From positions 372,001-436,000 of the forward strand of contig JAHBVS010000001.1 in assembly GCA_019637445.1 (NCBI GenBank): a stretch of 64,000 bases of DNA, in the 5' to 3' direction. The notes under the pieces were generated by a model. That model worked only from the letters and a program-made list of their open reading frames with translations, did not search any database and was not told the DNA's origin. The translations under genes were made by a program, and so were the position numbers. Below, piece by piece: positions 30,645-34,619 of this stretch. The DNA comes from Gemmatimonadaceae bacterium (GTDB lineage Bacteria; Gemmatimonadota; Gemmatimonadetes; Gemmatimonadales; Gemmatimonadaceae). How positions within the stretch are numbered: the stretch's first letter is position 1; each line of letters opens with the position of its first letter.

Positions 30645-31673
30645 TCATCGCGTCGCTGGGGGAGCGCTCGCGTCTCGCAGGCCGCCGAGCCAGCGCTCGA
30701 TCGCCGCGAGCACCGGTTCGGCGATCGGCGCCGTCCCTTGCCGACGCCGCGCGTCCGCCGGGTCCGCGAAGTCGTGGCTGAGCCCCGGGAACAGCTGCAG
30801 CGTCACCGCCGCGTTCCCCGCACCACGCATCGCCTCCGCGAGTTCGTACGACTGCTCGAAGAGCACGGCGTCGTCGCGCTCGCCCTGCAGCAGCAACACG
30901 GGCACGCGGATCTCGCGGAACGACGGCAGCGGATCGTAGTCGAGGAAGAACGGATACCAGGCCTCGTGCTCGAGCCGGTCCCGCAGGTCGCGCAGCATCC
31001 GCGCCTCGATCAGGTCCGCGCTCGTGTACGAGACGGCCTGTCGTTCACGCTCGGCGGCAAGGCGCACCTGGTAGCCCATGATGCGTCGGCCGTTCCATGC
31101 GGGCGCGGCCAGGGCAATAACCCCGGCCACGCGCGGTTCGGTCGCCGCCACCCGGGCGGCGATGGCCCCGCCTTCGCTGTGTCCGAGCAGGATGACTGGA
31201 CGCGCGGCAAAGTCTGGGAGCGCGGCAATCGACGCCACAATTGCCGCGACGTCAGTCGCCAAGCTGGCGGTGGTGGCTTGCACGGCATAGTCACCCGTGG
31301 AGCGACCGGTGCCGACTTCGTCGAAGCGCGCGACCGCAAAGCCGGACGCGGTGAGCCGCGCGACGATGTCTCGAAACGCGTGGTTGTCTCCGCCCGGCCC
31401 GCGCGCCGTGTAGCCGTCGCGATCGTTCGGTCCGGCGCCAGCGATGAGCACGACGACCGCTGCTGGGGTGATGTGCGCCGGACGCTCGACGACGACGGCG
31501 AGTTGGTGGCCGAGCGGGGAGGCCACACGGAAGTCGGCCGCCACCGCACGGCCCTGCGCGACGACAGGCTGCGCGACGGTCGCGCACGATGCTGCCACGA
31601 GGAGGGCCTCGGAAACCGCGGCGCGGGGCCCGCGAAGGACCCGGCGCAGGTAGCCGCGACCTGTCAGTCGCAA
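30645..31673 (-). CDS. Exported alpha/beta hydrolase
   Basis: A hydrolase of about 342 aa with the fold's full triad: nucleophile Ser in LLGHSEGGAIA, Asp in LQGERDDAVLF and His in GLSHDFAD. The GAGPNDRDGY oxyanion loop and the dienelactone-hydrolase-like RFDEVGTGRSTG segment suggest an esterase or peptidase-like acyl hydrolase. The start is uncertain. The frame is open to 31772, but that would overlap the upstream gene by 109 bases. A TTG at 31673 overlaps the upstream stop by 10 bases, follows a weak AGG, and gives a plausible export signal (AVSEALLVAASCATVAQP). No in-frame ATG precedes the fold. Confidence 0.75.
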   Translation of the reverse strand: MRLTGRGYLRRVLRGPRAAVSEALLVAASCATVAQPVVAQGRAVAADFRVASPLGHQLAVVVERPAHITPAAVVVLIAGAGPNDRDGYTARGPGGDNHAFRDIVARLTASGFAVARFDEVGTGRSTGDYAVQATTASLATDVAAIVASIAALPDFAARPVILLGHSEGGAIAARVAATEPRVAGVIALAAPAWNGRRIMGYQVRLAAERERQAVSYTSADLIEARMLRDLRDRLEHEAWYPFFLDYDPLPSFREIRVPVLLLQGERDDAVLFEQSYELAEAMRGAGNAAVTLQLFPGLSHDFADPADARRRQGTAPIAEPVLAAIERWLGGLRDASAPPATR

Positions 31674-32065
31674 CCGACCTGGCCCCGAAGGGTCGCGGGT
31701 GCGACGGGATCGAGGCCCACATAGATGGCGCAGCGACGCGTGGTTCCGGCGTGTGTGGCGACGGCGCTCCACGTGCTATCTCCCGCGTCGCCCAGCGTCA
31801 GGGTGACACCGGCGGAACCGCGGAAGGCAGCTCCGAGATCTGCCAACGATGCCGCGAACATCGGCGGATCCTGATCCGACTGATACGCCGTCTGAGCGGT
31901 GACGAGGTTCCGCAGGTCGCCGCGCATCGTTACGACGTAGGCGCGCTCCTTGGAGCCTGCGAATTTGGAGATCGCGATTGCCGCCAACACGCCAAGAACG
32001 ATGATGACCACCAACAGTTCGACCATCGTGAATCCTGCACTGCGACGCGATTCGCGCTCCTGCAC
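31664..32065 (-). other. Possible internal start: stand-alone prepilin inside the TPR fusion
   Basis: GTG at 32065 is in frame with the fusion and has GGAG 6 nt upstream. Translation from it gives a 133-aa prepilin with an 11-residue basic leader ending in Gly, cleavage before Phe, Glu at +5 and a hydrophobic alpha-1 helix, the normal size for a minor pilin or pseudopilin. The C-terminal Cys pair (Cys617 and Cys638 in fusion numbering) could form the usual pilin disulfide loop. Confidence 0.5.
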
Positions 32066-33583
32066 GTGGGTCTCCGAGGTTTGGGATGCGGGCCGGTCCG
32101 AGGGTTCGGGAGCCGAAACGCTCGGCTCCCAATCTGCACCGTAGAGCTCGGGACCGCAGGTGGAGCAGATGGCGTGGCTGAAGACCGCCTCCGTGTGGCT
32201 CGAGATGTAGTGTTCGACGGCGTTCCAATAGCCTTGGTCGTCCCGCACCCGCTTGCAGTGCGCGCAGATCGGGATGAACCCCGACAGCGTACGCACCTCG
32301 GCCATCGCCGCCGTAAGGTCCTGGTTCGCCTGCCGCAATTCGCCGTTCGTCGCGGCCAGCAGGCGCTCGCGCTCCACGCCCTGTCGATTGAACCGCCACA
32401 GCACCAGGGCGAGCACGCCACCGAGCAACACCAGGGCGGCCGCGAGCACCACAATGATGCGCTGTCGCGCGATGACCGCGCGCTGCGTGCGGTCCTGTTC
32501 AACCAGTGCCCCGTACTCGCGGCGCTGGCGCTCCGCCTGCGCCTCCAGTTCCATCCCCGCGATGCGCTGCGCAATGCGGCGGTCGAAGATCGAATCGCGC
32601 AGCGCATTGTGCTCCCGCAGCGTGCGCAGCGCGGCGCGGGCGTCACCGGAGGCCTCATACGACTGTGCGAGTCCGGCGAGGGCCTCCACGGTGAGTGGCC
32701 GCTGATTGATGTCGCGACCGAGGCGCGCGGCGGCCGTGAAGGCGCTGCGTGCCTCTGCCACGCGGCCTGCGGCCAGGTAGGCCGCGCCCAGCCCAAGCTG
32801 CGCCTCGATCCGGCCGCGGAAGGTACCACCGCGTTCGGCCGCCGTGAGCACGGCGCGGAGACGCGTGAGCGCGGCTTCGGTGTTGCCCTGCCGCACATCC
32901 AGACGCGCCAGCGGCAGTGAGACGAAGGACCACGCGCTGGAGGAGTCAGCGGGCGTCAGGCGCGGTTGGTGCGACAGATACGCCTGCCACGAACGCTGAA
33001 GCAGTGCGCGTGCGCTGTCCGCACTTCCCATATCCAGATAGACGACCCCGAGCGCGTGCAGACCGTAGCCGCGCACGATGCCATCATCGGTGCGCTCCGC
33101 GGCCGCGACTGCCTCACGCAACACGGACAGGGCACGCTCATACTGCCCCCAGTCGTGGTACGTCTTGCCGATGTTGGTGAGGTTCACGGCCTCGCCGCGC
33201 CGGTCGCCGATCGCTCGGCGGATGCTCAGCGACCGCAGGAAGTTGGCGAGCGCCGGTTCGTAGTTGCCGGCCTGGTAGTGGGTGGCACCGAGTGTGTTGT
33301 AGATACGGCCGAGCTGCACCGTGTCCCGCCGCGCCTCCTGGATGGACTCTGCCTGCAGCAGGTGGACCAGAGCGCTGTCGTAGCGGTCGTCCTGCCAATG
33401 CACGAGGGCCAGCGCGCGGTGCGCATCGGCCAGCCGCGCCGAGTCGCGAGCCTGAGTCGCCGTGGCGACCAGCCGACGATACGTCTCCAGCGAGTCAAGG
33501 GACGGCGACTGGGCAGCAAGGCCCGAGGCGCAGGCCAGCGCCGCGGCAATGCCGACGCGCGCGAAGGCGGCGATGCCCGTCAC
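31664..33583 (-). CDS. TPR sensor-like protein fused in frame to a type IV pilin-like domain
   Basis: A 639-aa composite. Residues 1-25 are a signal peptide. Residues about 30-350 are tetratricopeptide repeats (Leu/Ala-rich 34-residue units such as GRIYNTLGATHYQAGNYEPA). 350-425 is coiled-coil-like around one transmembrane helix (376-396). Residues 436-481 hold a paired CxxC module (Cys440/443, Cys473/476, with GYWNAVEHYI), known at the ends of bacterial TPR/PAS signalling proteins. After a Ser/Pro-rich linker comes a complete prepilin motif: RRSAG then FTMVELL (Phe518, Glu522) with a hydrophobic helix and a globular tail to 639. No stop separates the two halves. The start is GTG at 33583. 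Whether it is one polypeptide or two products is open. Confidence 0.8.
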   Translation of the reverse strand: MTGIAAFARVGIAAALACASGLAAQSPSLDSLETYRRLVATATQARDSARLADAHRALALVHWQDDRYDSALVHLLQAESIQEARRDTVQLGRIYNTLGATHYQAGNYEPALANFLRSLSIRRAIGDRRGEAVNLTNIGKTYHDWGQYERALSVLREAVAAAERTDDGIVRGYGLHALGVVYLDMGSADSARALLQRSWQAYLSHQPRLTPADSSSAWSFVSLPLARLDVRQGNTEAALTRLRAVLTAAERGGTFRGRIEAQLGLGAAYLAAGRVAEARSAFTAAARLGRDINQRPLTVEALAGLAQSYEASGDARAALRTLREHNALRDSIFDRRIAQRIAGMELEAQAERQRREYGALVEQDRTQRAVIARQRIIVVLAAALVLLGGVLALVLWRFNRQGVERERLLAATNGELRQANQDLTAAMAEVRTLSGFIPICAHCKRVRDDQGYWNAVEHYISSHTEAVFSHAICSTCGPELYGADWEPSVSAPEPSDRPASQTSETHVQERESRRSAGFTMVELLVVIIVLGVLAAIAISKFAGSKERAYVVTMRGDLRNLVTAQTAYQSDQDPPMFAASLADLGAAFRGSAGVTLTLGDAGDSTWSAVATHAGTTRRCAIYVGLDPVAPATLRGQVGCD

Positions 33584-33601
33584 CGACCCTCCGCGACGCG
33601 C

Positions 33602-33982
33602 CTAGCGCCGCACCCGCTGGCCGGTGAGCTGCGCGCTGCCCATCCCACCAAAGTCGACGATGCCGTTCAGGCTGTCCGGCGTGACGATGCGGGCGATGTA
33701 CGTCAGCACCACGCCTTCCCCGCCCATCGAGGACGAAAGGACGAAGCGCAGGGTATCGCGCTCCACCGTCCCGCGCAGCGTCCGGCTGCCCATCGCATTC
33801 GAGGTGTAGGTGCCGTGCACCGAGTCGCCCGTCTGTGTGAGGTCCACCGTCGGGTAGCCGGTACCATTCTCGGTGACCACAGCGAGGGTCCAGCGGCCCG
33901 TGAGATCATGCGTGGCGACGCCGGCGGCAACGGCCGCGATGGAAAATGCGGCAAGGACGGCGATCGAGCGGAAACGCGACAT
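33602..33982 (-). CDS. Small secreted protein of unknown function
   Basis: A 126-aa exported protein: signal peptide over residues 1-24 (ending VAAGVA), then a single beta-rich domain with GRWTLAVVTENGTGYPTV, DSVHGTYTSNAMGSRTLRGTVERDTLRF and a C-terminal LNGIVDFGGMGSAQLTGQR. Alternating strands ending in G-T/R turns resemble the lipocalin-like or calycin-like sheets annotated in secreted hypothetical proteins. I do not recognise a named family. The ATG at 33982 has GGAG 8 nt upstream. It sits 13 bases after the flavin reductase stop on the same strand, so cotranscription is likely. Confidence 0.7.
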   Translation of the reverse strand: MSRFRSIAVLAAFSIAAVAAGVATHDLTGRWTLAVVTENGTGYPTVDLTQTGDSVHGTYTSNAMGSRTLRGTVERDTLRFVLSSSMGGEGVVLTYIARIVTPDSLNGIVDFGGMGSAQLTGQRVRR

Positions 33983-33995
33983 GTCGAAAGCTCCG

Positions 33996-34619
33996 TTAGC
34001 GCTCGAGCGTGGGCCGCACGAGACGGAAAATGGAATCGGACGTGACGGACGACCACTCATCGCGGCCCAGGCGAGCCGCAGGCTCGATGCGCGCGGTGTC
34101 GGGGCGCCCGTCTTCCGCGAGATACTCGTCACGGATATGCACGAATAATACCTCGGCGATCACCCAAGTGCCGTGGAGGGGGCCGCTGCCCTGCGGCACC
34201 AGCTGCACGACCCGGCACTCCAGCGCGGCGGGTGCCTCGGCTACCCGCGGTGGCCGCACCCGCGTCGAGGGCAGGCGCGTGAAGCCCGTGATGTCGAATT
34301 CATCGACATCCGGCGGATACGGTGCCGAGGCCTGGTTCACCCGCTCGGCCATCTCGCGCGACACGATGTTGACGACGAACTCCCCGTGCTCCCGCAGGTT
34401 GCGCAGCGTGTCCTTGGGGTTTCCGTCGCGGTCTGCCGTCGGGCAGAAGGCCAGGCCCTGCGGGTTCTGCCCCCCCATCGCGAAGAAGCTGAATGGCGCG
34501 AGGTTGCCCTGGCCGGCCGCGCTGAGCGTGCTGACGAAGGCGATCGGGCGCGGCGCAATCAGCGGCGTGAGCAGCGCGTGCCGTTCGTGCGGCTTGAGGT
34601 CTGCGAGGTCGCGGTGCAT
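33996..34619 (-). CDS. Flavin reductase-like FMN-binding protein
   Basis: A 207-aa protein of the flavin reductase/DIM6-NTAB family (split beta-barrel). The family's N-terminal run is clear: LTPLIAPRPIAFVSTLSAAG, then NLAPFSFFAMGGQNPQ (residues about 16-52), which binds FMN, followed by KDTLRNLREHGEFVVNIV. Members reduce free flavin with NAD(P)H or act as flavin-dependent oxidoreductases; the substrate is not evident. The ATG at 34619 is fixed by TAGTCT 7 nt upstream, although the frame remains open to 34937 into the divergent barrel gene. A 126-aa secreted protein follows on the same strand. Confidence 0.85.
   Translation of the reverse strand: MHRDLADLKPHERHALLTPLIAPRPIAFVSTLSAAGQGNLAPFSFFAMGGQNPQGLAFCPTADRDGNPKDTLRNLREHGEFVVNIVSREMAERVNQASAPYPPDVDEFDITGFTRLPSTRVRPPRVAEAPAALECRVVQLVPQGSGPLHGTWVIAEVLFVHIRDEYLAEDGRPDTARIEPAARLGRDEWSSVTSDSIFRLVRPTLER

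Follow-up and report, generated by a model that had tools for sequence, protein, structure and literature searches.

A single open reading frame in the genome of a member of the Gemmatimonadaceae raises the question of how a complete type IV prepilin came to be fused in frame to a sensor-like membrane protein, and whether the gene yields one polyprotein, two nested products, or is simply the trace of a rearranged gene order. In the window, by which we mean the whole stretch of 64,000 nucleotides that was analysed, this frame runs through 639 codons on the minus strand (33583-31664) without a stop. Its parts, and the two genes that precede it, are as follows.

31664..33583, minus strand: fusion open reading frame with signal peptide, TPR, transmembrane (TM) segment, CxxC domain, linker and prepilin (open frame, Pfam, hydropathy, AlphaFold2)
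32066..33583, minus strand: TPR/TM/CxxC moiety plus linker, residues 1-506 (homologues extracted and aligned)
32066..32137, minus strand: linker, residues 483-506, predicted to be disordered (tail lengths, pLDDT)
32063..32075, minus strand: GGAG ribosome-binding-like motif, 6-nt spacer and internal GTG (32065)
31664..32065, minus strand: prepilin, 133 amino acids counted from the GTG
33602..33982, minus strand: small secreted protein gene (Sec), 18 nt upstream of the fusion
33996..34619, minus strand: flavin-reductase-like gene (FlavRed)

The TPR moiety starts at GTG 33583, with GGAGG a few bases upstream. Pfam searches place TPR_12 at residues 92-163 (E 2.9e-28) and, in the same frame, N_methyl (PF07963) at residues 513-538 with 27.6 bits (cutoff 21.2 bits); the pilin part also scores 23.4 bits with TIGR02532 (cutoff 16.3 bits). 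Hydropathy peaks are found at residues 1-22, corresponding to the signal peptide, at 376-394 and at 520-538. The open frame and the Pfam domains bear out the proposal of the earlier note that a complete prepilin stands in frame behind a signal peptide-TPR-TM-CxxC protein. The CxxC domain (residues 440-476, with C440/C443 and C473/C476) had no Pfam model match in region 430-485; the same domain is encoded at two further places in the genome, L004 (G000:C1 2246779) and L005 (C4 25173). AlphaFold2 models the whole fusion with a mean pLDDT of 81.6 and predicts a confident TPR superhelix and a long helix through the membrane segment; residues 455-513, with a pLDDT <50, are read as disordered. A scan of 31500-34100 for promoters and terminators found none.

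The pilin part carries a class III signal with its hydrophilic leader, Gly-Phe cleavage site (between G517 and F518), hydrophobic stretch and Glu at +5 (E522). AlphaFold2 predicts the lollipop fold of a pilin, with a helix of 63 residues (508-570) and a three-strand head with a pLDDT of about 95, and the closest solved structures by sequence are the Geobacter geopilin 7tgg and PilA 6xxd and 8tj2. In our alignment both C-terminal cysteines and all invariant pilin positions are kept, and the 133 codons are free of stops and frameshifts. Mature position 22 is a Ser, in contrast to the Pro of 62 of 64 comparable pilins, a count that leaves out eight other matches without Pro that are minor-pilin-like; the fused protein may therefore be a minor or a decaying pilin. 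The genome encodes two other intact PilA-like pilins, which fall into clades separate from that of the fused pilin in our tree. At L003 1-1905 (G000:C1 about 1565640-1567541) of this genome, polA (DNA polymerase I) is closely followed by a PilA-like pilin gene, a conserved linkage that recurs in at least 11 further genomes from the order (L016, L018, L029, L030, L031, L032, L033, L035, L105, L106, L112). Two long frames upstream of pilin genes in other genomes were considered as fusions and rejected: that of G089 (1009 aa) runs over polA in the wrong frame, and in that of G285 (1084 aa) an in-frame TGA separates polA from the pilin.

Where the pilin begins is of central importance for the interpretation of this locus. 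Codon 507, the GTG at 32065, is preceded by GGAG with a 6-nt spacer, and a comparable SD-like motif accompanies 13 of the 231 internal in-frame starts (5.6%) in six window genes. Counted from this GTG, the leader has 11 residues (MQERESRRSAG, followed by FTMVE) and, if translation starts here, would occupy the N-terminal position, which it lacks in the long product. The separate pilin gene of the congener G005 reads AGGAGG-cacg-ATG-CAG at its start, and it shares with the window pilin the MQ start and a PP insertion, which occur together in none of the other 25 aligned pilins. DNA upstream of the two pilin starts has no significant similarity (shuffle p 0.12-0.49), and the case for a conserved start is built on position, leader and MQ instead. 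To judge from these features, GTG 32065 is most likely the pilin's own start, and the normal leader together with the well-spaced GGAG makes a pilin-only product likely. The nested arrangement suggested by the earlier note, in which this GTG gives the pilin alone, gains support from that leader and from the match to the G005 pilin start.

The TPR/CxxC protein itself occurs within the genus as well as in several others of the family, with the nearest homologues in G010 (52% identity) and G005 (49%). Its four cysteines, C440, C443, C473 and C476, are invariant in 19 aligned homologues, in which the CxxC domain forms the normal C-terminus; in the window protein it is not C-terminal. All 24 homologous loci that we extracted, five of which belong to the same genus, have a stop after the CxxC domain, and the tail beyond its LYG motif measures 9-27 residues in 23 of 23 measured homologues (22 in G010 as well as in G005). 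The window protein has 24 residues between LYG and the pilin GTG, and 157 residues follow G482 in total. The linker is consequently about as long as a free C-terminal tail, and by the tail lengths of the relatives the missing stop would be expected where the ribosome-binding site of the pilin now lies. The same fusion in relatives, for which the earlier note had proposed a search, did not turn up: a query spanning CxxC and pilin had no other spanning match among 288 genomes of the order, the 23 measured homologues stop before any pilin, and a scan of the genome's own contigs gave only distant CxxC or TPR matches. Separate genes in the relatives, named in that note as the outcome that would speak against it, are what we observed, and G005 has the pilin orthologue as a gene of its own at another place in the same gene block. 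As far as the sequences compared here can tell, the fusion is private to this genome and lineage-specific, and not a conserved sensor-pilin system.

The gene order of G005 provides a view into the possible origin of the fused pilin. The block HPPD-HGD-FlavRed-...-VPS10-aminotransferase (AT) is common to the window and G005. Inside it, G005 has the order FlavRed-PIL-Sec-TPR-VPS10-AT, so that its pilin gene directly follows the FlavRed orthologue, two genes upstream of the TPR gene with Sec in between; the window has the order FlavRed-Sec-TPR:PIL-HYD-VPS10-AT. In G010, G002 and G016 the FlavRed, Sec and TPR genes are present, and no pilin match was found at the locus. The G005 pilin is the best family-wide match of the window pilin (53%) and its sister in our trees, with support values of 81/86 (68 rows) and 97/91 (26 rows). 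Removing either pilin leaves the other in the same position, which makes it unlikely that long-branch attraction alone accounts for the pairing. Immediately downstream of the fusion, the window carries a gene for an alpha/beta-hydrolase-like secreted protein (30645-31673) that starts at or just before the pilin stop; TTG at 31673 as its start would overlap that stop. We did not find it in G005 in the interval from TPR to VPS10.

Collectively, these data lend themselves, with moderate confidence on our part, to a model in which local gene shuffling created a lineage-specific fusion and the pilin continues to be translated from a start of its own. The pilin gene would have left its place ahead of Sec and settled behind the TPR gene, possibly through a tandem duplication of PIL-Sec-TPR with subsequent loss of the outer copies, and the stop codon of the TPR gene would have been lost; we infer the direction of this move with G005 as the sole relative that has a pilin at the locus. 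Translation from GTG 32065 would then furnish an ordinary short-leader prepilin, and every ribosome that completes translation of the TPR gene would inevitably make the long fusion product. From hydropathy, the long product is predicted to adopt a periplasm-TM-cytosol-TM-periplasm topology in which the Gly-Phe bond faces the cytosol; the suggestion of the earlier note that the linker and the prepilin site lie on the cytosolic side holds as a prediction of this kind. Prepilin peptidases act at the cytosolic face (PMC10191384), and the genome encodes one Peptidase_A24 and several T2SSE ATPases. The peptidase could hence trim the long product to a TPR/CxxC protein with a short tail and a normal mature pilin, and the fusion could then be tolerated. 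The data give no sign that the sensor-like part and the pilin are functionally connected, and the fusion is probably a recent, incidental accident of gene order and not a new machine.

Could the fusion be an artefact of sequencing or assembly? Beyond codon 470, the first stops in the other two frames occur about 80 and 131 codons on, within the pilin, so that correcting a missed indel would not yield two ordinary genes, and an error of this kind cannot account for the fusion. Of the missed frameshift or stop that the earlier note had considered, the former is thereby eliminated; a stop misread through a base substitution between two separate genes is still conceivable, with 8 of the 24 codons before GTG507 one substitution away from a stop, a fusion seen in one genome only, and one genome of the species covered. 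Base-substitution errors are rare in finished bacterial assemblies, however, this genome is rated 100% complete in 7 contigs, and the neighbouring long genes are intact in comparison with their orthologues, so that we regard an error of this type as quite improbable. A different explanation would be that the pilin has been decaying since its move and is produced solely as a functionless extension of the TPR protein. The divergence of the fused pilin (branch length 0.64-0.79), its Ser22 and the presence of the two intact PilA-like pilins would fit such a fate. Yet its invariant residues, cysteine pair and intact reading frame are retained, its head is predicted confidently, and the separate G005 orthologue has diverged as well (0.51-0.63); decay is thus a rather unlikely explanation in our view.

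The uninterrupted frame could also be taken at face value. In this reading, the TPR/CxxC protein and the pilin would always be synthesised as one chain, from which the peptidase would free both in a fixed ratio or which, left uncut, would tether the sensor to the pilus base. The cytosolic placement of the G517-F518 bond, the peptidase gene and the tolerance of longer leaders in Geobacter PilA (PMC6201914) are compatible with a functional polyprotein. We nevertheless judge it unlikely, as the arrangement is conserved in none of the relatives searched, a good internal start is available, the linker is only as long as ordinary free tails, and a 517-residue leader lies far above the roughly 6-30 residues that have been described. 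The more specific version of this idea, a natural sensor-pilin polyprotein that is jointly inserted, cut at an internal class III signal and puts either the supply of pilin or the pilus base under the influence of the sensor, appears unlikely to us as well.

If a long product is made from the locus, it would represent a natural test of whether a class III signal that follows an entire membrane protein is still a substrate for the peptidase, given that the leaders described for prepilins are at most tens of residues long. The locus also documents a probable gene movement that led to a fusion, with the unfused orthologue kept in the same block of a congener. Should the fusion be no more than incidental, it would count as a common accident of evolution. 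In the literature that we searched, we found no precedent for fused or internal prepilins beyond the long leaders of Geobacter and the modular pilins discussed below.

Compared with the TPR-TM-CxxC proteins of the family, the window protein has 39-52% identity over the TPR/TM/CxxC part and keeps all CxxC residues, whereas the relatives end 9-27 residues past this domain and none carries a pilin. With type IVa major and minor pilins it shares the Gly-Phe site, Glu+5, the hydrophobic helix, the small head with its C-terminal Cys pair and, from the GTG, the 11-residue leader; it differs in having Ser22 in place of Pro22 and in standing in frame behind a membrane protein of 506 residues. PilA of Geobacter sulfurreducens is produced with leaders of 10 and 29 residues, both reported to be cut by PilD, and there too a single frame encodes a short and a long prepilin (PMC6201914). 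The long leader of that pilin, however, comprises 29 residues, whereas in the window it would be a whole membrane protein and the two products are only predicted; by analogy, Geobacter PilA attests to a flexible leader length, but not to an extent of 517 residues. The modular pilins PilB and PilC of Streptococcus sanguinis likewise combine a pilin with an extra domain (PMC10191384), but there the additional domain is adhesive and sits on the side of the pilin head, whereas that of the window protein is N-terminal to the leader and partly cytosolic.
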